Notes under the pieces: generated by a model
Database searches by the model: none
Told to the model about the DNA's origin: nothing
The model's input: only the letters and a program-made list of their open reading frames with translations
Source of the DNA: Buxus sempervirens
Taxonomy: Eukaryota > Streptophyta > Magnoliopsida > Buxales > Buxaceae
Direction of reading: 5' to 3'
Length of the DNA stretch: 64,000 nucleotides
NCBI GenBank assembly: GCA_947561395.2
Contig: OX387184.1
Location: forward strand, 27,022,766 to 27,086,765
Translations under genes and position numbers: made by a program
Part shown: in pieces, positions 3,700 to 63,639 of the stretch
Layout of the letters: every line of letters starts with the position of its first letter
Numbering within the stretch: position 1 is the stretch's first letter

Positions 3700-4985
3700 T
3701 AATCTAATTTCGAAAGGACAAAAAGTGGCCCTTTTTTGTAATTTGGGATCTTAGTGGTATGTTTTTATAAATATCGACGAAAAGTGACCATTTTCCATAA
3801 TTTTCCCTATAAAAAATTTTCTGTTAATAATGAAGACACATAAAAACATAAATAAAAAAGAAAGTAAAAGACTAGACCTACAAAGAATAGAATTAACAAC
3901 CCTAGAAATCACAAAATCAAGATACATACAATTCAGTATTTCAAATATCAAGATTTATTCTTGTGATACTTATTCATTTTCTATTATTACATGTAAATCA
4001 TCTTTCTCTACAAGCTGTGATGCCTGATTTACCAAGTCCAAATTAATTCAGATACTTGATAGTTTCTGTCCTCTAATTGATAGCTATGCTAGCTTAGAAC
4101 CACCACTCATGATTTGCAAGGGTTTTATTCTTTAAAAAATATCCAAATTATCACTTTAAATAAATGAAGATGAGGAACTTACAGAAATCTCCCCGGTCAA
4201 TTGAGACATAAAGGCAAAAAAAAAATTAATAAATGAAAGAAGAGGAAGTATGCTTGGTGGTTGCGGAACGACCATTAGTGACGATCTTCCTTTCTGAGAA
4301 TCAACCTCGAACATTTTAACCGAATTGCCCCAAAAGCACACAAAAATCTCGGGTGTTTCGGGAGAGTCCCCATCTGTGCGCAAATGCAATAGCACTCATT
4401 CAAGACAGACAGTTCAGTCCAGCTGATTTTACATTGCCCTAGCCCAAACTGATTGTAACACCGCCTAACCCACCTTTAAAACCCTTTATTCACGTAGTCT
4501 AGCAGTCCCCTGTATTGTACTGCTGTTACATGTAAAATTAAACACAAATTTTCTAAGATTTTCTTAAAAGTTTCAAGACCCATTAAGATTGAAGCTGCCG
4601 TTTGCAATAGGGAAGTTCTTTAGGACTCGCCAACTATTCTTTTTTTTTTTTTTTTTGCTTTGATAAGGTCTCGCCAACTATTCGGCCAGGTGAAAAGTTA
4701 CCATACAACTGATGAAGTTATACATAACTATAAACGAAACTTAACTCATTTATTGATCACGATAGTATTATATGACAAAATAATGCACTTAGTCAATCTA
4801 ATTAGCTCAAAATTCTCTGTTGACAATGGCATGAAGAGTATTACATTGACCAAGACACTTGTCTGTTCTGTTTCTCTTTCGAAGAGTTTGAAGATACCCA
4901 TTTCTTCACTTTTTTTTCCCTTCGAATTTAATTTGAGTATTCATCCAAATCAACTGAAAAACTAATGAAAAAAATGGGGAACAAG
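3700..4985. other. No recognisable gene (IspD 3' flank)
   Basis: AT-rich, with a T run at 4641-4656. A 79-codon open frame on the minus strand at 4156-4395 (starting MLLHLRTDGDSPETPEIF) resembles nothing I know. The stretch next to the IspD stop (about 4700-4992) should hold the IspD 3' UTR. Confidence 0.5.
4749..4754 (-). terminator. Candidate polyadenylation signal of IspD
   Basis: AATAAA on the minus strand, about 240 nt downstream of the IspD stop codon. Plant polyadenylation signals are weakly conserved, so this is only positional support. Confidence 0.3.
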
Positions 4986-5064: not shown

Positions 5065-8000
5065 CTGAAGATAATAAAAATAATTCAGTAAATTGGGATC
5101 AAGATGACATAAAATTCAACAATTTTTTAACTCTCATATGGTAGAAATAATTGGTCAAAGCAGCAGTGATGTGGTTGTGCATGGAAGCACGCATTCATGA
5201 ATATTTCAAATAAATAGGGGTAGTTTACATGATTGTGACATTCGATGAATATTAAGAGTTGAAAAATACAGGTTATGTAGTAAAAGCAACAAGCTAAAAC
5301 TAACAGAACAGTATAGAGAATAGAAATCCAATACCTTGATGTTGGTATAAGATCCATCTGTGATGTACACAGGATGATTAAGATGCTCTACAATAGACAC
5401 GTCATCGGTAACTTCAAGGCCCTCTCTGTAGAGAAGCACAAATGCTCATTATATGTCTCTTATTTAAGGCTCTCCTATGTTAGAGAACAAAATTGGCCAA
5501 CCTCTATGATAGATATTTAATCAACTAGGGAATAATGTCTTGAGATCGAAACCACAGAACTGTAAAAGGTAGCTGGCTACAGATATATGGGGGAGGAGTA
5601 AATCCAAGAATTATTCTAGTCTAGTGCCTAGTTTCAAACATTAATTTGGCAATGGACTACTGATAGAGCAGCAGTTCACTATTCTTAATCGATGCATAAA
5701 GATATTTTTGGATCCTTATGTTACCTATTCATTCATAGTGAAGTTGTTAGAAGTATTTGGGCCTTATTATTGCCTGGTGGTGCATGGGTTTTTCTGAAGG
5801 AGCCAAGGGAGTTATAGGATACCCTCAAAGATTCAGCCCTTTAGTTGTCTGGGGTTTGGTCCACTGGTTTTCGCAGATGGTTCTCTGTTCTAGACATCTT
5901 TCTCATTTAGCCTAAAATACTTGATTGGGTATCAAATTTACTAAAGTTCATTGTAAGATATGGTGCTGGCCGCACATCAATCCAAAAAGATCATCATAAT
6001 GTTGTAGTTTATCACAGAAATTAAGATTCAATGGGTGTAAAAGACCAGGTTCAAGACATGATGCTGTGTCTCATATCATTCATTGACATGATTTTGTGAA
6101 CTTTCAATTGTGAGAAGGTACTATTTTGATAACATGAGTTCATGCAAGAATCAAATCTTTTTACTATTCCCTTGTACAGTAAAAGTTAGGAAAAATTCAA
6201 GATCAATCAATACAGAATTAAATATCACAGGTGTGGAAGAATTCTACCTATTAACAAGCTGAAAACCTTTCCTAAGCAAGTCAGGCCTGATAACCTGTAG
6301 AAAATTTTTGATAGGTAACCATAAATCTCTTACCAATATGGTGAATGAAACACTAATCATATATAGAAAAGTCAAAACTAAGTGCTTTAACCAATTAACC
6401 TGCGGGGTTTGCATTTCCCAAAGTGTTTTCCTGTCCAGAGTTCTTACAACAAAAGATTCAGCATTTGCCTGCATAAACATTGAAACAAGAATTTCAGGCC
6501 TTGTCATGGATGTGATGATTACAGCTCATGTGGTTAAAGTGGAGAATAATCCAATGCATATTGTTGTTATGGGAACAAATTTTAGATATAAGCAAACAGC
6601 AAGACATTTTCAAGTGATTTGACTCTTCACATCAAATGATTGAATCCGAAATCCTCAAGGCCAAACAACAATGTGCTATGAATTCATGTGTACAATCATT
6701 ATTGTAATAGTGGGAATCAGTCTGTTTGAAGAATAGGAGCTCTAGTTGATAAAATTCAGAAAAGAATTTTATTACTGAAAAACTACAAGATGTTTACATT
6801 GCTGGTTTTGTTATTAAATGAGTTTGTCATGATTTTTTAAGTCAATTGGGCTGGTTTTTTTTTTTTTATATATATATATATTAAAAGAAAGATGTATGTA
6901 CATAGTAAATACAAGTATGTATGATATTCCCCCTCCCCCAAGAGGCAACAAAAACCTCTCGGATCCAGAGACTATTCAAAACAAACTAAAACACTATAAA
7001 CATTGACACTATCATATACAAAAACCCATAACCCTCCCCATGACCTTATATCTCTAAACTGAACATATCTCCACACACTCCTCAGAAACTGGCCCTATAT
7101 ATATATATATCTGATCTGGAGGCCCCATACTTAGCTCGTCGATCTGCCATAATATTAGCCTCTCTAGGCACGTGACTTAACGAGACGTTCAGCTCATATG
7201 CCAAGGCTCTAGCTCTGATAATGACATGTGAAAGCCTCCATGTTTCAGGCTGGAATTATTTATACTCTTTATCCCTTGCTTTATTATTTGGAAATTATGG
7301 ATTGGAAGGAATAAAAGCAATTTTGAGAATTATTTCACAAACGGATCATTTTCTTGCCTTCTTCTAAACCAAAAATCAGTCGTCCTACTTTGGATTTGCC
7401 AAATTTGAAGTCTTTTAGTTGTCATGCCTTCTACACAGTAATCTTTCTTTATTCTCAAGTGGCTTGCTCCTACCAATTTCTTTAAATTGAATATTGATGG
7501 GTCTTCTTTGGGAAACCTAGGCCCCAATGGTGGACAAGGAATTTTAAGAGACTCCCGTGGAGGTTGTCTTTGCTTTTTCTCATCATTTTTGGCACTTCAA
7601 ACCAAGATTTTATACTTAATCTTGCTGGGTGTTTCGCCCTATGATTGAAACAAAATTTCAACGGCAAACCACCGAAATTTCTTCGAAGCGAAGAAATATT
7701 TGAAACATGAAAATCAGTGATTATTTTGGATTTGGCAAAAATAATGACAAAATTGAGTGAAATTTAGCTTGAATTGGGTGAAATTTCAAGTGTATCGCCC
7801 ATTGAAATGACTAAAATAATTTAAAAAACAAAAAACAAAATTTCACTCCATTTTGTCCGTTTCACCCAAAATTCCGCTCTGTTTTACCCATTCCACTAGA
7901 AGTTTCACTCAATTTAGAATCGCGCAAAATGTCTTGTTTGCTTCATTTTACCTCCCACAAAACATCATGCAGGGGGGTGTCTAGAGTGAAATTTCACGGT

Positions 8001-11000
8001 GTGCCGTCGAAACAGTAAACACTAGTTCGAACAATATAGAAAAAAACAAATCTCTTCTCCAAGGTCTCCACGTATGCTCATCTCTTAATGTTTGCAACCT
8101 CTCAATTGAATCTAATTCAAAAAGATCCTATTAATTGAATTCATTGTCTACCCTTTCCTTGGCACCTTTCTTACTGGATTCTGTAGATCAAGGATTCATT
8201 TTCTTTTTGTTCCTGTTTTACTCATAATTTTCAATAAGTCAATTCACTAGCAAATGCTCTTGCGAACCTTCATGCTAGTGGCTGCAACCCTATTTATTTA
8301 ACTCTGATGTTCCTCAGGATATTTTTTTATTTGTATCCTTTAGATAAGTTGGACCTTCCTTATTTAAGGAGTAATTCTTTGGTTAACATTGTGTGACACA
8401 TTAGAAGATTTCTTGGTCCTTTTTATCTAGGGGTCAGATCTTGTGTTCCTTGTTCTCTTGTAATTTTTTTTCTTTCAATTTTAATATAGGTCAAGATATC
8501 TGCCTCAACCCTAATCCCACTGACGGAGTGCCCCTATTGATCTATTGACCAAAGGGGGTTTCCTTTAAAAAAAATTTACTCCCACCAAGGGCGAGCCTTG
8601 GCGCAACGGTAATGTTGCTCCATTGCATTGTAGCCTAAAGGTTGCAAGTTCGAGTCACAGGAAACAGCCTCCCTGCTTGCGCTGGTAAGGCTGCATACAT
8701 CAGATCCTCCCCAAACCCTGCACAGTGGCAGGAGACTCGTGCACTGGTCTAGCCCTTTCTAATGTGATAGAACTCCTTGAATGTGAATAAATTCCCATGA
8801 AAAAATCCACTTCCATAAGCTCCGAAGTTGAGTCCATTAGACTCTGAAAGAAATCTTGCAACATGGACTACAATGTGATAGTCTAATTTGAAAAAATATG
8901 AGATATACGTGAAGATAATGAAGGCATGCCAACTGTGAGAACACGGCCCGTGGGGTCGGTTCGGGTCAAAGGAGTCGCCACCATCCATGGTTCAATTTAG
9001 GTGTGGATGGACACCAAGAAAATTAATTAATTAAGTGAGAATCTTAAATTGGCCCAACCAGATTTTGAGTTAGGGGATTCACTTAAGTGGTTGGGAAGGT
9101 GTTAGGCACCCAACTACCCCTAGTTCAATGAACTAGTTACCTTATCTGAATCACTCTAAAAATTTTATTTATTTACAATTTCCTCAAATTCTAATGAAAA
9201 AATCTTAGATATTTACAAATCCTAAAAAAGGGGAAGTTTCTAAGTTTGCTAAATTTTATAAAAGTAGAATATTTATAAAATCCTAATCTTTATAGATTTC
9301 TAAAAAATTTAAAAGAAAGAAAGTTTCTAAATTTACCAAAAAAAGGGAAAGTTTCTAATGGGCCATTTAGTATGGCTTCTGGATTGTGGATTCTGGATAA
9401 TAATTTGGATTTTGAAAATCAAGATTGTATATGCTTATTTTTAGAATCCAAAATCTTGTTTGGATATTTTGGATTTTAGCACCTTATTTAAGTGGAACCC
9501 ACCACCATTAATAGCTATTTAGTACTTGTGTTCAAGTGGGATCCACCACTTTTTAAGTATCAAAATCTATACAAACCCATAAAAGAAGGATTGTGGTTTT
9601 TGGTAGATTTTAGTATCTGCTTTAAAAATCAAACTTTCAAAAATCCTACCAAACAACTTAATGGACCTTGGTTTTTGGATTCTGGTAGAATCCAGAAACC
9701 CCACCAAACGACACCTTTGAAAATTTTCCTTATTTAAGATTTGTATATATTAGCAAACTTAAAAACACTTAGAAATTTAGGTGTCATTTGGTGGGGTTTC
9801 TAGTTTCTGGATTCTACCAGAATCCAAAAACCAAGGTCCATTAAGTTGTTTGGTAAAATTTTTGAAAGTTTGATTTTAAAAACAAATACTAAAATCTACT
9901 CAAAAACCACAATCCTCTTTTTATGGGTTTTTATAGATTTTGATACTTTAAAAGTAGTGGGTCCCACTTGAACACAAACACAAAAGAGCTATTAATGGCG
10001 GTGGGTCCCACTTGCACACAAGTACTAAGGAGATATTAATGATGGTGGGTCCCACTTAAACAAGGTGCTAAAATCCAAAGTATCCAAACAAGATTTTGGA
10101 TTCTAAAAATGAGCATTTGTAATCTTGATTTTCAAAATCCAAAATATTATCTAAAATCCACAATCTAGAAGCCATAACAAACGACCCCTTAGATTGCTAG
10201 ATTTTATACGAGTGGAACATTTCTAAAAATCCTAATCGTTAAAAATTTCTAAAAATTTAAAGATGCAACTAAAACAAAAAAATTTACAATTCTTTAAGCA
10301 TTTAAAATTTTCTTTCTTTTTTTTTCATTTAATATAGTTATTTATTAACAATTTCTTAAAAAAAATAATATTTACAAGTCCCACATAAATTATCACACCA
10401 AAAGATCCCCAAATAAAATAAAAAAATTTAAAAATAAAAGGAACTAAGCCAGTATAGGTCTAGCTGAGGTTAGTCCTTGGAGGGGTGGACTGGCAACCAT
10501 GATATTAAAATTCAACCAATACTGCAAAATACCAGCTAGTATTAGCCGGTAAGACGTAATTCTGTTCAGTGTTCACAACCTGTATGGTGAGTGGTACAAG
10601 TTCTTTAAACCATGAGGCAACAAACCAAACCTTCAGCATTTTTTGCAAAGTGGTTACACTTAGACTCAAATCTCCATTCACATTCTAATGGTGCAATGCT
10701 TGCACCATCAAACCATGTGATGGTCCCTCAAAAGAGCCCAAATGAAGACCAAATTTCCTCAAATCTTACTATCATAAAAGAAATCGAGGCAGATATCCGA
10801 CTGACATTTCCTTCCCAAAGAACCCTTCTCCTTTTCCCATATTGACTTCTATATCCCGATTAATAACTTACATGGTTACGCTCACTTATTGAGATTTGCT
10901 GCCAAATAGTGCCTCTCTTTTTTCCCTGTTGACTTCTATATCCCAATTTATAACTTACACCGCATACTAAAATTTGCTGCCCAAAGAGCCCCTCTCTTTT

Positions 11001-14000
11001 TCTATATTGACTTTTATACCCCAATTAATAACTTACAACCACATACAGTATGCACGTGCCACCCGCTAGTCAAACCGAATAAGAAGATATGAATGTGAAT
11101 CATAAAAATATAATTAATTCATCTTGATTCCTGGTGTACATATGATTCATAATGATCTTATTGATTATTTTATGGGAAAATGTAGTGATATGGCTACTTG
11201 AAGCCCTTGCTTGGCTTCACCGGTAGACAGAATCAGCAGCTAAGGAATAGCTTTTCATCTGAATCCACAGACTGAAGCAAAAGGCACGAAATCAATCAAT
11301 CACACAATGTGGCCAACAGTTACAGAAAATTTCCTTCCAAGGATTTGATTATGGAAATTAGCAGCAAAGAGAAAAAAGAAACAGGGAATGAGAGCCCTTT
11401 TGTCCACCTGAAAGACAGCTCAACCATACTTATATGTTCATGACAACTGACAAGGATAGCAAGTCAGAAACAGTACCACAAAGGTGAATAGTTTCAGCTG
11501 AATCTTAAGAACAATATTCCCAGTAACCATTTTCACTCAACATCCTGACTTCATAAGTGTCTTTTATGTCCATACAAGCTAAGGTCAAAGAATTACCTCC
11601 ACATTGCACTCAACTGACATGAAGTGATCACTGGGTCTCACTTCGCGTCTCTGGCTAGTCTTGTCAATAAAGTCCTCAAGATAAAACTTCATGTCACTTA
11701 GGGAAGTTGGATAAACTTTGAGCTTCTGTGGCGCCTATTCTCTAGACCAACCTTGCCACATACTTCATCAATTTTATTCAACCTGTAAGTCTTGGAAAAC
11801 CATTTTACTAATAATCTTCTGTCAACCATAACAAACTCATCTTGGCATGACCTTATACATGACGTCAAACTCAACACGTTGTTCTTCTCACTTCTTCATG
11901 CATAGACAACATTTCCCAGATGATTGAATCCTAATTATCATATATTTACTTCGCATCCTTCCAAGTCAGTCAGTTGTCTCAAGCCTAACAGGATCACATT
12001 TAAATCAGCCAGTAACTCTTAACTAACTGCTTGTTTGCAGCTCAACTTCTCTTGAACTAAAACTGATGTTGTCAAATCATTTTAGTGGCTCCAAATACAT
12101 AAGAAGTGCCATTCTATTGTTCCATTCAACTTCTGAGTTCCAGATGCAACATAAACATCTCCTTGCACAGCAATTCCTGCTAACTTGGCAGGCACTAATG
12201 TCAACTCAAATAGAAAACCTAGATTTTGAGGACGTAAGAGGGTCAGCATCCTCATCTCAATCCAACAAGGACAACAACTCTATGTGAATTTCATTTTTCT
12301 TTCCACGTCTTTAAACAAAACACATTCTTCTCTAAATTTTGACAGACCTTTCCTAGGATGAACCACATGTTCTCATAAAGTCTGGAAATATACATCAAAC
12401 TCAAAAGGATTAGCATCAAAAGAAGATTCAACTATTTAATCTGCTTCTCAGGACCTTATATCTCACTTCAATTCCAACATAATCAACCTCTGGAAACTGT
12501 TTGTATTCACAAAGACTGGAAGTACAACCATGGAGAAAAGGCAAAGTAGTACCCCACAATGTCTGAGGGTCTATGGCCTCATCTGAACTCAAAGTAATAG
12601 AGCATTGCACCATCTTCAATATAAACAAATATTTTTCAACTTCAGATATGGATTTCAATTTCATGTCCAACTTATCTTCATCACCAAACTTGGACCTGTT
12701 CTCTTACTGCAGCCCTTTCAGTTCTTGGTCAATGGACAGGATAAAACACAAACACCAATCATATCTACGTTAACATAAATATTAGTGATAACGTGCATAG
12801 ATAGACTAGTATCGCTTGACTTCAATGTTCAACCATTTGTATTACTTAAGATTAGGAATATTTGAAAAATAAAAGGGTACACAATAAAAATTCATGGTGT
12901 TTGAAATGGATTTAGGTGATCCAACAAGATGGAATTTTATTCTTGTCTTCTTTTTGCTATGTAATATTATATCTTTTGACATATAAAACTTCATGAACTT
13001 TATGAGATTACAACTAAGAAATTTAAAAATTCCATATTAATAACTAGACAGAGGGCAGCGACATGGGATCCTGTCATACTTGCTTGGAACCCAGCATCCA
13101 GCTGCATAGCACTGGCACGTAATCATTCATTTGTTTTCCAATACCAACGATGCTCTAACATATTACACTTTAATCAGTTAAGTTATGAGGAAAGTTGATG
13201 TCTGACACCCCCATAGCAGACTACCCAATTGACATGGTTTATCACTGGTAAAGAAATATCTCTGATTCATGTTAGTTAACATTAAGTACAATGTATGAAA
13301 AAGAAATGTATCCATACAGTGAAGAATTAGATCCACGCCCAAAAAATATACTGGAGCACATATGATATCTCATGGCATAGTTTCTGAAATGAAGTTATCC
13401 TTATATTTAGATGCACAAAAACACACACATGAAAAGGTAACTTCATTTTCAAAGAGATTCTGACATCTACACAGAGATTATTTTTCAGAGTGTAACATGA
13501 ACCTCTTTGATCGTAGCTTTAACAGGAACACCAAGAACAGCAGCACCATGTAGCCAACCATCTTGAAGAACCTGAGTCATGTTAAGCATGTGTTTTTAAA
13601 TCGTCAAGATGCATATGCCGAAAGAGCAAGAGAGAGAAAGAGACACACACAACAGACACAGAGAAATTCAGAAAAAACTTTTATGTATATAAACAGTGAC
13701 AGTTCCAATTTTCTGAAAGAAAAAACTGTCGAAAAGCTAGAAGAAAGATGAATTTGGAACTGAATTTATGCAATGCACTTATTGCATCAACAAAAATAGA
13801 TCACTGAGTTTTCCATACCACATGCAATCTCTGATTCATTTATGTGTATAAATCACCTAAAATACTAGCTCACTACCAAAAACAAACAGACAATGACCAC
13901 TAAGCCACAAGTTCAGATGTCATCATCTAATGTTACCTGAAAATAAGGTGGAGATTAAGAAGGCATCTATGACACTTAGAAAACAATCAATGTTACATAT

Positions 14001-17000
14001 CTCTTTCCTAAAGAATATCATTACAAGAAAATTGTCAGGATTTGAAATATTTTTAATATCTCTTTGCCTTTGTGGATAGAGTTTTTCTACTTGCTCATGA
14101 TTTGTTTTGAACTTTTGATATGATGTAAACCACAAGAAAAGCCCCCTAGAATGTGACCATCATCATCTATACATCTCACCTACTGGGTGACAGATGGAGC
14201 CTATCCTTCTCCCCATTTGGATCAGTATAGATGTGCCTTATAAGCATCAAGAGTTAGATATGCTAATAGCCTGTGGTAGTTATGGAGTTATGTGGTTAAT
14301 CCTCTTGATGCTGCATTTCTATGACCTCTTTTATGGCACACGGAAGAAGCATGTATATATAGATAGAGAGAGATTGTAATATATAGAAGCATAGCATTGT
14401 TCTACATAATATATATCATTGTGAAATCTTCAAAGTTTCAAACTGGTCCATAACTATGTTTTATATCCTCCTTTAAGTTTGTAAGCAGCGTCGCGGCGTG
14501 CTGCCGAAAAATCGAGTGGCATTCGGCTAGCAGCACGTTTCGCTAGCCGAATGCCGCTCTTTGCATTTCTCTAAGAAATGCCGATGAATTTCGATGCGTT
14601 TCGTCGCAACTTTTTTTTTTAAAAATTTTTAAGTCGCGCACGGGAAACAAACGCTTTAAGTCGTCGATTTGGGCAAAAATTTCGCCCAAATCAATGACAT
14701 TTCGTTTGCAACGAACAAGGAAAGTGGTTTTGAGTTTTCTTCTTCAAATCTTGACAATTTTTTGTGAAATCTGTCCCAAAGTTCATTTTTCTTCAAGATC
14801 TTGGTTCTAGAAATAACATAGACACAATTTGGAGTGGGATTTGAGCTCATATGACGTTCTTGCTCCATCTTGAAGAAGGTAAACGTCCACTTCTTGATTT
14901 CTTCTATTTTATAGCCTTAAACATATTAGATTAAGTTGAAATTAGGATATGTTAGGCTTTGGCACCCGATCTATCAATGGGTGCCATTATTTTATTTTTT
15001 TTTTTAAATTAATTTTTTTAATTATTTGTGACGAAAATTAATTAAAAATAGGGAAAAATATACAAAAATACAAAAGTTATGTTATAATTGATAAAATTAT
15101 TATGAATGCTATGTATTATTATCTATAAATATTTGTTTGAAAATTAATTTTTTTAATTATTTCTCATGAAAATTAATTAAAAATAGGGAAAAACACAAAA
15201 ATCATATTATAATTTAATAATAATTACTGTGAATGCCATGTATAATTATCTATAATTATTTGCATGAAAATTAATTTTTTTAATTATTTCTCACAAAAAT
15301 TAATTAAAATTTAAAAATAGGGAAAAATATAAAAATCATGTTAGAAATTAATAAAAGTTATTATGAATGCCATGTATAATTTTTTATAATTATTTGCATG
15401 AAAATTAATTTTTTTAATTATTTCTTACGAAAATTAATTATTAATTATTAATTTGTTTTGTATTGTATTCGCAACTAATATTATAAGTTTGTTTTGTAAC
15501 TAAACTGTTGTTGGTATTTTATTTGTACGTCGTGCAGGTGATTGTTGATTGTTACTGTATTGATCTGGTATGGCTTCTGGCTCTGGCACTGGCAATGGAG
15601 GCGACCAGTAGGGTCGTAGGCTAGTAGATATTGGCTGGAGGCACTGTAAGAAAGTGGATGAGGATAGAAATAAGACGGGATGCAACTATTGTGGCCAGCA
15701 ATTTAAGGGTGGTGGGATTTCACGGTTGAAGCAACACCTAGCACATGGCTACAAAAATGTAGTCAACTTTCCAAGAGTACCTCCAGACGTAAAAAAAACA
15801 AATGCAAGAACATCTACACACAGGGACGATTGGCCGGCAGGAGAAGAGGGTCATAAAGCATGAGATCAGACGCAGGCTAGGGAGCCTGTACGATCACCTA
15901 CTGGGGGTGAGGATTCAGATGATGATATTTTCTACCCTGCTGATATAATGAATGAGGCAGAGAGGGCTGCATTTCGAGCTAATGTTCGAGATTCTTTACG
16001 AGATGAGTACGAGAGGAGGGAGAGCCACAGATTGGGCTTAGAGAGGGGTGGTTACTCAGAAGGTGATCATGGTAGCCATACTCGAAGTTCAGAGCATAGG
16101 GCTCAGCCTGCATTAGGGTGGACACAGAGTACGAGGATGCCGGACTACCCTACGGAACCCCAGTTATATCGTTCTTCTGGATTGAAACAGAAAAGACTTA
16201 GAGATGTTTGGAGCAAAGGATCATTGAAGGAGAAAATGGGAAAATACATATCGAAATTTTCATTTTTAATAACATCCCAACAAATACAGCAGCATCTCCT
16301 CACTTTAAGAAAATGGTAGACGCTATTCAGGAGGCGGGTCCAGGAGTGCAGCCGCCTACACCCCGTGACATTTTGGGTAAATATCTGGATGAGGAGCAGG
16401 AGATGAAAGATTTTATTGCATCCCTACGACCTCATTGGGAGCAATTCAGGGTGACCATTATGTATGATGGTTAGACAGGTCCTACTAGACTGTCCATCAT
16501 CAACTTCATGGTATACTGTAAAGGGAAGGCAGTGTTCTTGAAGTCAGTGGACGTATTAGATAAAATAAAGGAAGCAGAGTATATAGCACGTCTACTTGAG
16601 GAAGTCATAGCTGAGGTTGATACACAGTATGTGGTCCAAATTGTCACAGATAATGGAAACAATTATAAGAAGGCTGGGAAGATCATGCAAGAGAAATATA
16701 GTATATACTGGACACCGTGTGCGGCGCATTGCATTGACTTGATGTTGGAGGCGATTGCATAGAGGAGCACAGTAGTCAGTGTTCTACAAGATGCCCGAGC
16801 CCTGACGACATTTGTCTATAACCACAACTTTGTACTAGCAAAGATGAGAGAGATATGCAGTGGAAACATAGTTCGGCCTGATATTACCAGATTTGGCACA
16901 AACTACATTGCCCTAGAGAGTATTTTGAAGCATCAGACTAGACTAAGAACACTTTTTACTAGTCAGGATTAGTGTACTTCCTCTCATAGCAGAATGGCAG

Positions 17001-20000
17001 TAGGCAGAAAAGTTGAGGACATTGTATTGTCTAGTAAATTTTGGGATGATGTCGGAGCCATTGTGGGATATTTTGAGCCTATGTACCATGTATTAAGAAT
17101 TGTTGATACAGATGCTTATCCCATGAGAGGGTCCATATATGAATACATGAGAGTCATGAAGGCCCAGATTATGAATGCACAGCCTGACTCGTACCAATGG
17201 GTGCACAAGATTATTAATGCGAGATGACCAAGACTTTGTTACATGCGAGATGATCTTTAGGCCTTCAAGTTTTTCTATCAAAGTAGAAGAACTATTATAG
17301 TTTTTCTTTTCTTTTCCCGTTTTGTTTTTTTTGGTAGACATTGTGCCTTGAAATATGATCGTTTGAAAATGACAATCAATTCCCCTTTCACGAAAAAGTA
17401 TTTTAAATTTATGGGAAGATTCAGTAACTATTGTGAAAAACACAGAAATGAATACTGATATTTCAGAAAGAAAAAATATGCAACGAAGTCTTAGTTCATC
17501 TCGCATTAATAATCTTGTGCACCCATTGGTACGAGTCAGGCTGTGCATTCATAATCTGGACCTTCATGACTCTCATGCACTCATATATGGACCTTATCGT
17601 GGGATAGACATCCGTATCAACAATCCTCAATACACGGAACATAGACTCCAAATATCCCACAATGGCTCGGACGTCATCCCAAAATTTATTAGACAATACA
17701 ATGTCCTCGACTTTCCTGCCTGCTGCCGTTCTGCTATGAGAGGAATTACACCAATCCTGACTAGTAAAAAGTGTCCTCAGTCCAACCCGATGCTTCAAAA
17801 TACTCTCTAGGCAATGTAGTTCGTGCCAAATCTAATAATACCAAGCAGAACTATGTCTCCACCACATATCTCTCTCATCTTTGCTAATACAAAGTTGTAG
17901 TTGTAGACAAATGTCGTCAGGGCTCGAGCATCTCGTAGAACACTGAGTACTGTAATCCTCTGTGCAATTGCCTCTAACATCAAGTCGATGCAATGCACTG
18001 CACACGGTATCCAATATATACTCTATTTCTCCTGTATGATCTTCCCAGCCTTCTTATAATTGCTTCCATTATCTGTAACAATTTGGACCACATACTGTGT
18101 ACCGACCTCAGCTATGACCTTTTCAAGTAGTTGTGCTATATACTCTGCTTCTTTTATTTTATCTGATGCGTCCACTAACTACAAAAACACTGTTTTCCCT
18201 CTACAGTATACCATGAAGTTGATGATGGACAGTTTAGTAGGACCTGTCCAACCATCACACATAATGGTCACCCTGAACTGTTCCCAATGAGGTCGTAGGG
18301 ATGCAATAAAATCTCTCATCTCCCACTCCTCATCCAAATATTTACCCATAATGTCACGGGGTGTAGGCGGCTGCACTCCTAAACCCGTCTCCTGAATAGT
18401 GTCTACCATGTTCTTAAAGTGAGGAGATGCTGCTGCATTTGCTGGGATGTGATTAAAAATGAAAATTTTCGATATGTATTTTCCTATTCTCTCCTTCAGT
18501 GATCCTTTACTCCAAACATCTCTAAGTCTCTTCTGTCTCGATCCAGAAAAACGATATAACTGGGGCTCCGTAGGGTAGTCCGGCATCCCCGTACTCTATG
18601 TCCGCCCTAATGCAAGTTCAGCCCTATGCCCTGAACCTCAAGCATGGCTACCATGATCACCTCCCAAGTAACCACCCCTCTCCAAGCCCAATCTGTGGCT
18701 CTCCCTCCTCTCATACTCATCCCGTAAAGAATCTCGAACACTAACTCGAAATGCGGCCCTCTCTGCCTCAGTCATCATATCAGCAAGGTAGACAATGTCA
18801 TCATCTGAATCCTCACCCCTAGCAGATGGTCATGCAAGCTCACTAGCCTTCATTTCATACTCTATGGCTCTCTTCTCCTGCCAGCCAGTCGTCCCTGTGT
18901 GTAAATGTTCTTACATTTGTTTTTTTACGTCTGAAGGTACTCTTTGACAGTTGACTACATTTTTGTAGCCATGTGCTAGGTGTTGCGTTAACCGTGAAAT
19001 CCCACTAACCTTCAATTGCTAGCCACAATAGTTGCATTCCGTCTTATTTCTATCTTCATCCACTTTCTTACAGTACCTCTAGCTAATATCTACCAGCCTA
19101 CGACCCTACTGGTCGCCTCCACTGCCAATACTAGAACCAGAGGCCATACCAGATCAATACAGTAACAATCAACAATCAACAATCACATGCACGACATACA
19201 AATAAAATACCAACAACAGTTTAGTTACAAAACAAACCTATAATGTTAGATGCGAATACAATATAAAACAAATTAATAATTAATAATTAATTTTCGTGAG
19301 AAATAATTAAAAAAATTAATTTTCATTCAAATAATTATAGATAATTATACATGGCATTCATAATAACTTTTATTAACTTATAACATGATTTTTGTATTTT
19401 TATATTTTTCCCTATTTTTAAATTTCAATTAATTTTCGTGAGAAATAATTAAAAAATTAATTTTCATGCAAATAATTATAGATAATTATACATGGCATTC
19501 ATAGTAATTATTATTAAATTATAACATGATTTTTGTATTTTTTATTTTTCCCTATTTTTAATTAATTTTTGGCATAAATAATTAAAAAAATTAATTTCGA
19601 AAAAAAATTAAAATAACGGCACCCATCGATAGATCCGGTGCCAAAGCATAACATATCCTAATTTCAGCCTAATCTAATATGTTTAAGGCTATAAAATAGA
19701 AGAAATCAAGAAATTGACGTTTACCTTCTTCAAGATGGAGCAAGAACGTCGTATGAGCTCAAATCCCACTCCAAATCGTGCCTATGTTGTTTCTAGAACC
19801 AAGATCTTGAAGAAAAATGAACTTTAGGACAAATTTCACCCAAAATCGTCAAGATTTGAAGAAGAAAACTCAAAACCCCTCTTCCTATTTCGTTGCAGAC
19901 AAAATGTCGTCGATTTGGGCGAAATTTCACCCAAATCGACGACTTAAAATGTCCATTTCGCGCGCGCATGCGATTAGCACGTGCGCACGACTAAAAAATT

Positions 20001-22677
20001 TTAAAAAAAAAGTTTCAACGAAATGCATCGAAATTTCAATGCGTTTCATCGAAACTCATCGACATTTCTCAGAGAAATGCAAAGAGCGGCATTTGGCTAG
20101 CAAAACGTGCCGCTAGCTGAATGCCACTCGATTTTTCAACGGCACGCCGCGACTGAAAACGCTGGTTAGAAGATAAGCAACCTTTTTGCGCCTACAAACT
20201 GATGCAAGACAGGTCATGTTTGGAACCTTATATTTGGGCTGTAACCCAAAACAGAAAATTAAGAGGTAATTAAAAGAAAAACTTAAACGTATTTATTTTT
20301 CTGTTCTCAGAAAATCCAGGGATCTAAATAAAACCTAAGAGATCTATAGGATATAACTTTGCAGTCTATACACACAGCTCTTTAACCTTTTTTATGTCTC
20401 CAGATGATACCAAAGGTCTGGCCGAATCATGGATGCAGACAAGTTCAGAATTAAAATCAACCGCCTGTAGAAATTAACAGAAAAAAAAAAGACAAAAATT
20501 AGATCAAACCATATGAACAAAAATATGCACAGCAAAGGATATATAACATTGAGAAATTTTATAAAGGTCACCATTAAATTATAAATGAAGAACATGCAGT
20601 AACTATGAGTATAACCTCCATAAGATATCATTGTTCAGAAAATATCTAATCAAGTAGGGAATAATGTATCAAAATCTAAATCACTAAAAATGTAAAAAAA
20701 AAAAGGTGGCTACAGATTCATGGAGACAGAGTTATTCCAAGAATTGAAGCGTCGTCTGGTGCCTAGTTCCAAACATAAATTTGGCAATGGACAACAGATA
20801 GAGTAGCAGTTCCCTATTCTTAATCAATGCATAATATTTAAAGTTATTTTTGGATCTGTAGATTATCTGTTCATTCCCTGTGAAATCGCTAGAGATATTT
20901 AGGCTTCTTATTATTGCCTGGAATTGCATGGGGTTTTCTAAAGGAGCTAATGATGTTATTTGATCTCTCCAAGATTCATCCCTCTGGTTGTCTGGGTTTT
21001 GGTCCTCAGGCTTATGAGGGACCGAAAATGCAAAATAGGTGGATCTTTCAGGGCAGATATTTCTCTATTCCACACATCTTTCTCATTTAGCCTAAAATAC
21101 TCGATTGGGTATCAAATTTAGCAATGGTCATTAACTTGGACGCCTCTACCTTCCACAGCTTTTAGATGAGCTTGCCTCTACTGTCACAAGATTGTGACTT
21201 TGTGAGATTGTGTGTATTTCTGGATCTAAGAAGATCCAGAACTTTAAGTCCACTTTAAGTTATGATATCTGATAAAAAAAAAATTCAAAAGAAAGAGAGA
21301 GAATCAAATTTCGAACAAAACCCTATATTTAGTTGTCTATAAACCACATCTTCTGCAGCAATATGAAAAATACCGATCAATAGCCAAATTCCTTTTAATT
21401 TACGTGCAAAACATCAATCACATAACACCCCAAACACGCCTCTCTACTAAACATAGCTCTCTACTGAATCCATCTCACTATAATTCTATGTGCAGTATCC
21501 TCATTAATGTCTACCTCCTGAATAATTGACTGAAGATAAAAAAATTTGATTATTTGTAAAAAGCTCTTGATTCTCAAAAACTATAAAGAAAAACAAAATC
21601 ACCATCATCATCATAGCTTAGATTTGAAGATATTCCACCATCACAGACATAATTCATCAGCATAGTCATAAAGCTTAGGAAAGCCTACATAGTAAATACT
21701 GAACCTAGCTAAATTCCTACACACTTTCCCAACAGACCACGCACCAAGGGGACTTGCCTAGTGAACTTAGCAACATGGTTCTGAATATCATATAGATACA
21801 CTCGATATCAAGTACGAGGCCACTCAATACAACATGTTACCATAAATATCGAAATGATTATTTTTGGAGCAAATTATTCAATGCTTTAAACATATTGGAA
21901 GTCATAAGTGGTCATGTTTAATGTAGCAGCTGATACAATTGGATCTCTTGATTCATTTGTCTTTTTTATTTCCAAGAAAATTGAGATAGGTCAAACCAAA
22001 AACCAAACCAAACTGAAAAAGAAAATGAATTTAAAAACCGAAAATGAAACCAATTTTGTTTGGTAAAATAAAAACCAATCTGAGAAAACTAAATGTACAA
22101 CCGTCTCGGGCTCTCAATGTGAGCCTTTCACTTCCTCTCTCAAATCAAATTCTGGTCACAAGCTCCCAATTTGAGTGCCTCTACTTCACTTCTCTTTACT
22201 GAAATCAAATACTAGTCTTAACTTATTACCTTCTTTTGATTGACAAAAAGATATATACAGAGACAGAGAGAGAATGAGCTAGTAATGTATATAGTGACAG
22301 TACAGAGAGAGTTCATTGTTGATAGAGATAGATAAGGACAGAGAAATTGAGTCCATCAATAATAATAGAGTCATGATAGAGAGAGAGAGAGAGATGGGGT
22401 TGGGTTTACTAGCGCTTTGAGCCTCAACAAACTTCCACATTCAGTCACTATTCTCGTGTTTTCTCATCTCAAAACCCTAATAATTTTTCTCCAGAGGCAT
22501 TATATCCACACTTGAGGTTCAAAATCCAGAAGCAACAATAGCTATTATGATAACACAACCAAAACTCTCTACTTGAAACCTTGTTGGTGGAGTACCTTGT
22601 GGGTGGAGCTAGAATTCATTCCAGCAATGACGACAATGAGATCAAGGTCTTCAACTCTTTGTCAATGGGTAACTATC

Positions 22678-63081: not shown

Positions 63082-63639
63082 TATGTGAAAAATATATATT
63101 TTAATAGATTAAGATAAAAATATGTATTTTAATGGATTAAGATGGAGTCTCGGGTGGGTTCCTCCTCCTCCCCTTCCCAATCCTTGATTGCCCATAAGAA
63201 TTTTCTAACCAGGGAAATGACCTTGGTTGGGCTAGCTTTTAAAATAGATAAAAGTAGGGAAATTGGCTTTTAAGTGATACTTTTTAGAATAATTCAAATT
63301 CAGTCACCAAATTCTCGATAAATGAAAAATAATGATTCTTTTTGAAAACAATTGAAAACTAGTATCATTCCACTACTCATTGAAACATTTTTTTTTTCTA
63401 AAAATACCCTTAAAAGACTTTTAAACCTTTTGTAACAATAGTTTGTTATTACAAGTCTTTTTACAAGTTTTTGCGGGCATTTTTGGAAGAAAGTTCCTAT
63501 GAACAAAAAATGACACTAGTTCTCAAGTGTTTTAAAAAGGAATCACTATTTATCTGTTCTCACCAATTGGGCGACTCAATCTGAATTATTCTAAAAAATT
63601 GGCAATTAAAACCCATTTTCCCTAGGCAAGTCCATCATT

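Follow-up and report, generated by a model that had tools for sequence, protein, structure and literature searches.

An intron of the IspD gene of Buxus sempervirens contains an old palindrome built from two broken hAT transposons joined head to head. It occupies positions 14486-20164 of the 64,000-nucleotide stretch of contig OX387184.1 (assembly GCA_947561395.2) analyzed here, hereafter the window, and is a real structure of a known kind. On balance, we favor the reading that two insertions of one transposon family were fused into an immobile relic, which would since have been transcribed within the IspD pre-mRNA and have decayed at different rates on its two strands. Both arms carry an excess of C>T changes on the IspD sense strand. 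Asymmetry of this kind agrees with gene direction at three loci. We judge the chance a little better than even that intronic inverted transposon pairs act as recorders of germline transcription, gaining about twice as much C>T on the sense strand through inherited damage (perhaps by light) and transcription-coupled repair, and so predicting gene direction.

Local alignment and an inverted-repeat listing delimit an inverted repeat of 5679 bp (~5.68 kb). The left arm (14486-17244, plus strand) represents the 5' half of one hAT copy and comprises the terminal repeat minus 7 bp, 134-bp subterminal repeats, and the broken 5' half of a transposase gene. The right arm (17478-20164, minus strand) is the corresponding half of another copy; its terminal repeat, CAGCGTTTTCAG, retains those 7 bp, and an open reading frame (ORF) at 18182-18595 matches the Pfam family DUF659 (E 4.7e-11). 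Between the arms lies a spacer of 233 bp (17245-17477). Alignment of 14490-17244 with the reverse complement of 20153-17478 gives 90.9% identity, with 2378 matching columns, 238 mismatches (194 transitions, 44 transversions), and 199 gap columns. The host intron (13572-20386, minus strand, 6815 bp) is bounded by consensus splice sites between two IspD exons. An earlier note on this DNA had described head-to-head 5' halves of a BED/DUF659 hAT element in an IspD intron and had proposed the arm-to-arm alignment; the alignment confirms two arms around a 233-bp spacer, and with the Pfam matches and the splice-site reading it bears that description out. Palindromes are a known type of assembly error, and a false inverted repeat was therefore considered. 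It is scarcely credible here. The arms are diverged rather than near-identical, which on that ground alone makes a fold-back artefact unlikely; in addition to the mismatches and gaps that separate them, their flanks differ, they hold unequal numbers of repeats, and their differences are ordered by strand.

The family was characterized from relatives in the 676.5-Mb assembly. With the left 1 kb as probe, the best 40 of 374 candidate places were scored and 20 stretches around such places were fetched; an inner-arm probe yielded the best 40 of 602 candidates and a 3' probe the best 40 of 305. These scored places are samples and not a census, since two loci discussed below (L009 and L010) fall outside the best 40 of the inner-arm probe. 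The relatives define termini of CAGCGTTTTCAG on the 5' side and CAAGGTTTTCAATAT on the 3' side and an element length of about 4.9 kb (L024). Target duplications of 8 bp flank the relatives L026 (GTTATAAC, 8/8 bases), L024 (7/8), and a 376-bp derivative in L027 (8/8). Pfam identifies zf-BED (E 9.9e-8) and Dimer_Tnp_hAT (E 4.9e-6) in L012 and DUF659 (E 2e-42) in L024. Taken largely from relatives, the 8-bp target duplication and the BED, DUF659, and dimerization domains place the family in the hAT superfamily. The same domains and 8-bp duplications link the window's relatives to hAT elements with a BED finger and DUF659, but in the window only two broken 5' halves remain; the dimerization domain is known from relatives, the palindrome lacking the 3' part that encodes it. 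The palindromic duplication GTTATAAC is common to two separate insertions (L026 1190-1197 and 4140-4147; L027 8459-8466 and 8843-8850), which suggests a target preference.

Two insertions are favored by the outer 8-mers, the left flank, the kinship of the arms, and the spacer. The left outer 8-mer, TTTGTAAG (14478-14485, plus strand), adjoins the family terminus and is a candidate half of a target duplication; the right one, GTTAGAAG (20165-20172, plus strand), agrees with it at 5/8 bases, whereas in the two single copies for which both ends could be read the agreement is 8/8 (L026) and 7/8 (L024). The left flank (14434-14485, plus strand) is a fragment of a repeat, here called X and presumably LINE-like, with matches of 91% at C1 and 88% at C12. 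Those two other copies, L030 and L031, are uninterrupted: over the insertion point they resemble each other at 93%, and they extend beyond it into a different continuation. This continuation was looked for beside the right tip and was not found there; the right flank (20165-20385) is unique sequence. Pieces of X on the plus strand lie at 5619-5952, 14434-14485, 20534-20558, and 20754-21132 of the window, which puts the repeat to the left and right of the palindrome as well as around 5.6 kb.

The arms are no nearer to each other than to dispersed copies. Pairwise identity is 0.899 between left and right arms, 0.903 between the left arm and L011, 0.899 between the left arm and L012, and 0.896 between the right arm and L012. 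The window arms have 3 pair-unique changes in common, typical of other pairs, in contrast to 68 for the two arms of L009; in the tree the window arms are ungrouped, while those of L009 group with a bootstrap of 100. Two further candidates for proof of a common arm origin were rejected: a TAG stop at 15609 shared by both arms occurs in 5/20 rows that cover this codon (both arms and 3/18 others), and L011 lacks the same repeat unit whose loss the arms share.

In the order of events that we favor, a burst of one hAT family would have brought two copies into the same IspD intron in opposite orientation. A later rearrangement may then have deleted both 3' halves together with the intervening intron DNA, breaking the two arms at one common point of the element. 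The probable route is a folded intermediate (cruciform or hairpin), which would lose sequence symmetrically if cut across its stem, followed by end joining with filler. The product would be an immobile head-to-head relic, thereafter transcribed within the IspD pre-mRNA, in both arms of which C>T on the sense (non-template) strand would have come to exceed that on the other strand about twofold, through DNA damage and transcription-coupled repair of the template strand.

Several structural observations weigh against this account. The inner ends of both arms fall on the identical base of the element (...TTGTTGCAT; base 2752 in L024), which favors a single event since two independent truncations rarely coincide. 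Target duplications are short, and an agreement of 5/8 is indecisive. Pieces of X occur again at 20534-20558 and 20879-20958, past the IspD exon and with order and strand kept, and are unexplained. Simple pairing and deletion also predicts 5'-outward and 3'-outward pairs alike, whereas 5'-outward pairs occupy 6/40 scored 5' places and the 3' probe gave no close opposite pair in its best 40 of 305. An alternative is that interrupted gap repair or template switching on one fresh element copied its 5' half twice and that filler closed the center. This is possible, though we hold it to be clearly less probable than two insertions. An unrelated spacer does lie between arms that stop at one common base, and where the left arm meets the spacer the 11-mer ATGCGAGATGA (17243-17253, plus strand) is a copy of 17217-17227 and resembles templated filler. 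Since L009 has sister arms, a single copy of this family does seem to become duplicated in inverted orientation at times. The window arms, however, have almost no private shared changes, which would place any single event at about the time of insertion, and the mismatched outer 8-mers and the flank continuation absent beside the right tip speak for separate sites. The abortive gap repair suggested in the earlier note thus stays among the candidates without being the favored one, given 3 pair-unique sites against 68 in L009. Separate insertions with their own target sites, the outcome that the note had set against its own proposal, are partly what was found.

A third reading, that the unit is a fold-back transposon mobile as a whole, had been put forward because both outer ends are the same terminus, and the family terminus is indeed reached at both outer tips. 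Fold-back elements and inverted double-Ds structures have long inverted arms, as has the palindrome; the latter differs in having no common target duplication at its outer ends and in that a further copy of the unit was looked for and not found. Searched with its junctions (query 17230-17495) against the 676-Mb assembly at E up to 10, the single-copy spacer matched itself alone, and it gave no match to the 20 fetched stretches or to the L024 and L028 elements. The inner-arm probe recovered the window pair alone among its best 40 of 602. The spacer result, with the outer 8-bp flanks and the missing flank continuation, argues against mobility as a unit, which we consider highly improbable.

Two more 5'-outward pairs were found among the best 40 of 374 places, L009 (C3:10.99 Mb) and L010 (C3:50.91 Mb). 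Each of the three palindromes has a different inner breakpoint, and the outer 8-mers have 4/8 bases in common in L009 and 5/8 in L010; these features indicate three separate formations and not copies of one fold-back element. The center of L010 (4741-5098) is an insertion resembling a miniature inverted-repeat transposable element (MITE), with an 8-bp target duplication, AGCACAAT, starting at 4733 and 5099. L009 lies between IspF (plus strand) and a CCCH-finger gene (minus strand) and appears intergenic. All three palindromes are in or near isoprenoid-related genes (IspD, an IPT-type gene, and, for L009, IspF at about 6 kb in L035); with n=3, this is probably chance.

A strand-specific mutation bias acting on an inverted repeat leaves a crossed pattern of arm differences. 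With one arm on each strand, a comparison of the two is enough to expose strand-specific decay without an outgroup. Among the arm transitions, 125 are G>A or T>C when read along the plus strand of the window and 69 belong to the opposite class (p 7e-5); outside CG sites the ratio is 102:46 (p 5e-6). When non-CG changes were polarized on relatives, the left arm showed C>T at 17/319 and G>A at 46/495 sites, and the right arm C>T at 42/321 and G>A at 32/505. The polarized counts of both arms place the C>T excess on the minus strand, which is the sense strand of IspD. This asymmetry fits transcription-coupled repair combined with long-term read-through, and it lends indirect support to the proposal in the earlier note that the IspD pre-mRNA runs through the palindrome. 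In a study of Arabidopsis somatic mutations, C>T is commoner with the C on the coding strand, and T>C and other classes are also reported (PMC10550316). The window has the same C>T bias to the coding strand as described there, but it concerns long-term inherited changes in intronic transposon relics and the C>T and G>A classes only.

The hot strand was set from asymmetry alone at two other loci, as plus for L010 and minus for L024, before genes were searched for. L010 is flanked on both sides by plus-strand exons of an IPT (isopentenyltransferase-type) gene, in agreement with the prediction: downstream exons match Pfam IPPT (E 2.3e-12 and 8e-4), and upstream P-loop and VGGTN exons were recognized by motif. 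For the P-loop exon, Pfam ranks Zeta_toxin first, a general P-loop family (E 1.4e-4, below cut-off); IPT itself scores E 0.023. On one side of L024 is a minus-strand glucan (callose) synthase exon (FKS1_dom1, E 2.5e-6), again as predicted; on the other is a minus-strand exon that matches nothing in Pfam or PDB and that we take to be of the same type. PDB sequence searches with two exons returned no match. L009 was predicted as minus weakly (p 0.066), at a locus that appears intergenic. Pooled over the three intronic loci, C>T stands at 248/2090 on the sense and 108/1886 on the antisense strand, a ratio of 2.07, with a p of 8e-12 that is inflated by the selection of L010 and L024 for skew.

The pattern varies among copies and sequence contexts. 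Skew reaches p<0.05 in 8/23 polarized rows, and the C>T:G>A ratio is heterogeneous over the 19 fuller rows (chi2 73.7, 18 df, p 1e-8) and also without the window, L010, and L024 (chi2 26.9, 13 df, p 0.013). In the window the skew is significant at pyrimidine-adjacent sites (64/567 v 34/571, p 0.0015) but not at the remaining non-CG sites (14/143 v 10/143, p 0.52). L010 is skewed in both contexts (68/545 v 35/510, p 0.0025; 16/139 v 6/147, p 0.025), and L009 gives 70/566 v 50/566 (p 0.066) and 15/147 v 15/146. For the same two contexts, five single copies picked for skew give 150/1491 v 47/1062 and 18/284 v 14/326, and seven unskewed ones 118/1292 v 202/2450 and 43/500 v 42/417.

Some of these data count against the transcription account. 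CG sites are symmetric in the direct arm comparison (23:23), which weakens it, although when polarized they lean the same way (18/112 v 8/113, summed). Ultraviolet or light damage is a weak suggestion as the source, given that the other non-CG sites of L010 are skewed too, although in the window the excess is significant in pyrimidine contexts only. T/A skew of the flanks shows no correlation with the asymmetry (rho -0.03, n=20). Asymmetry with a known gene direction is confined to three loci, L012 (predicted as plus) not being one of them. Replication direction retains some probability as a source of the asymmetry, though gene direction agrees at 3/3 loci.

A role of the palindrome in hairpin-RNA silencing is possible. 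Mu killer (Muk) is a maize MuDR derivative with a partial inverted transposase duplication whose outer termini are both transposase-side, lying beside a transcribed gene (PMC3440606). The palindrome likewise combines partial transposase copies in inverted orientation with one and the same terminus at its two outer ends, and adds another Mu-killer-like structure, here of hAT type in a plastid-pathway gene. It differs from the locus described there in being hAT and not Mutator, in lying inside an intron, in arms that are 9% diverged, and in that silencing is only hypothetical. Under a Mu-killer-like scheme, a 2.7-kb hairpin in the IspD pre-mRNA would be diced to small interfering RNAs against the hAT family and kept for that purpose. 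Besides the match in structure, read-through from the host gene is expected, and computed folding gives the sense RNA greater stability than the antisense, with a minimum free energy of -4229.5 kcal/mol and 130 cross-arm G-U pairs against -4022.6 and 71. The Mu killer paper argues that silencing does not come from the transcripts made by read-through (PMC3440606). The G-U excess can be explained by C>T on the sense strand and hence gives no evidence of selection; single copies (L024, L012) show the same asymmetry without a hairpin, so selection for RNA pairing need not be invoked. In addition, the compared codons contain 3 private stops in the left arm and 6 in the right, and the three codon positions have about equal shares of the changes (40/55/55). 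The raw dN/dS, 0.50 and uncorrected for transition bias, was set aside. We consider maintenance for silencing unlikely. The value of the palindrome would lie in its strand-resolved record of transcription.

If the transcription account is true, C>T can accumulate in intronic relics of a plant at about double the rate on the sense strand, and such relics could document transcription in the cells leading to the next generation. The split by sequence context bears on the lesions inherited by plant germ lineages, and with several hundred candidate copies the family allows the asymmetry to be tested genome-wide.

The IspD gene is on the minus strand, with exons on both sides of the palindrome. The exon upstream of the intron (from 20387, read as far as 20473; HDSARP) lies in an ORF at 20369-20473 that matches Pfam IspD at E 9.8e-4, and exons near 6.4 and 5.3 kb match at E 9.3e-4 and 3.5e-5, each of the three below the curated cut-off. 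The matches are ordered along the profile (85-113, 136-162, and 175-206), which supports one gene. An exon near 13.53 kb (ATIKE) was recognized by motif alone, and further minus-strand exons near 36.66, 28.56, 28.0, and 27.2 kb by motif reading. The next IspD intron contains a second hairpin, MITE-like, at 9354-10193, with arms 92% alike by local alignment, whose differences lean the same way as those of the palindrome (15:8, p 0.21). An inverted pair about 80% alike at 63255-63624 has transitions in the same direction (12:4, p 0.08).

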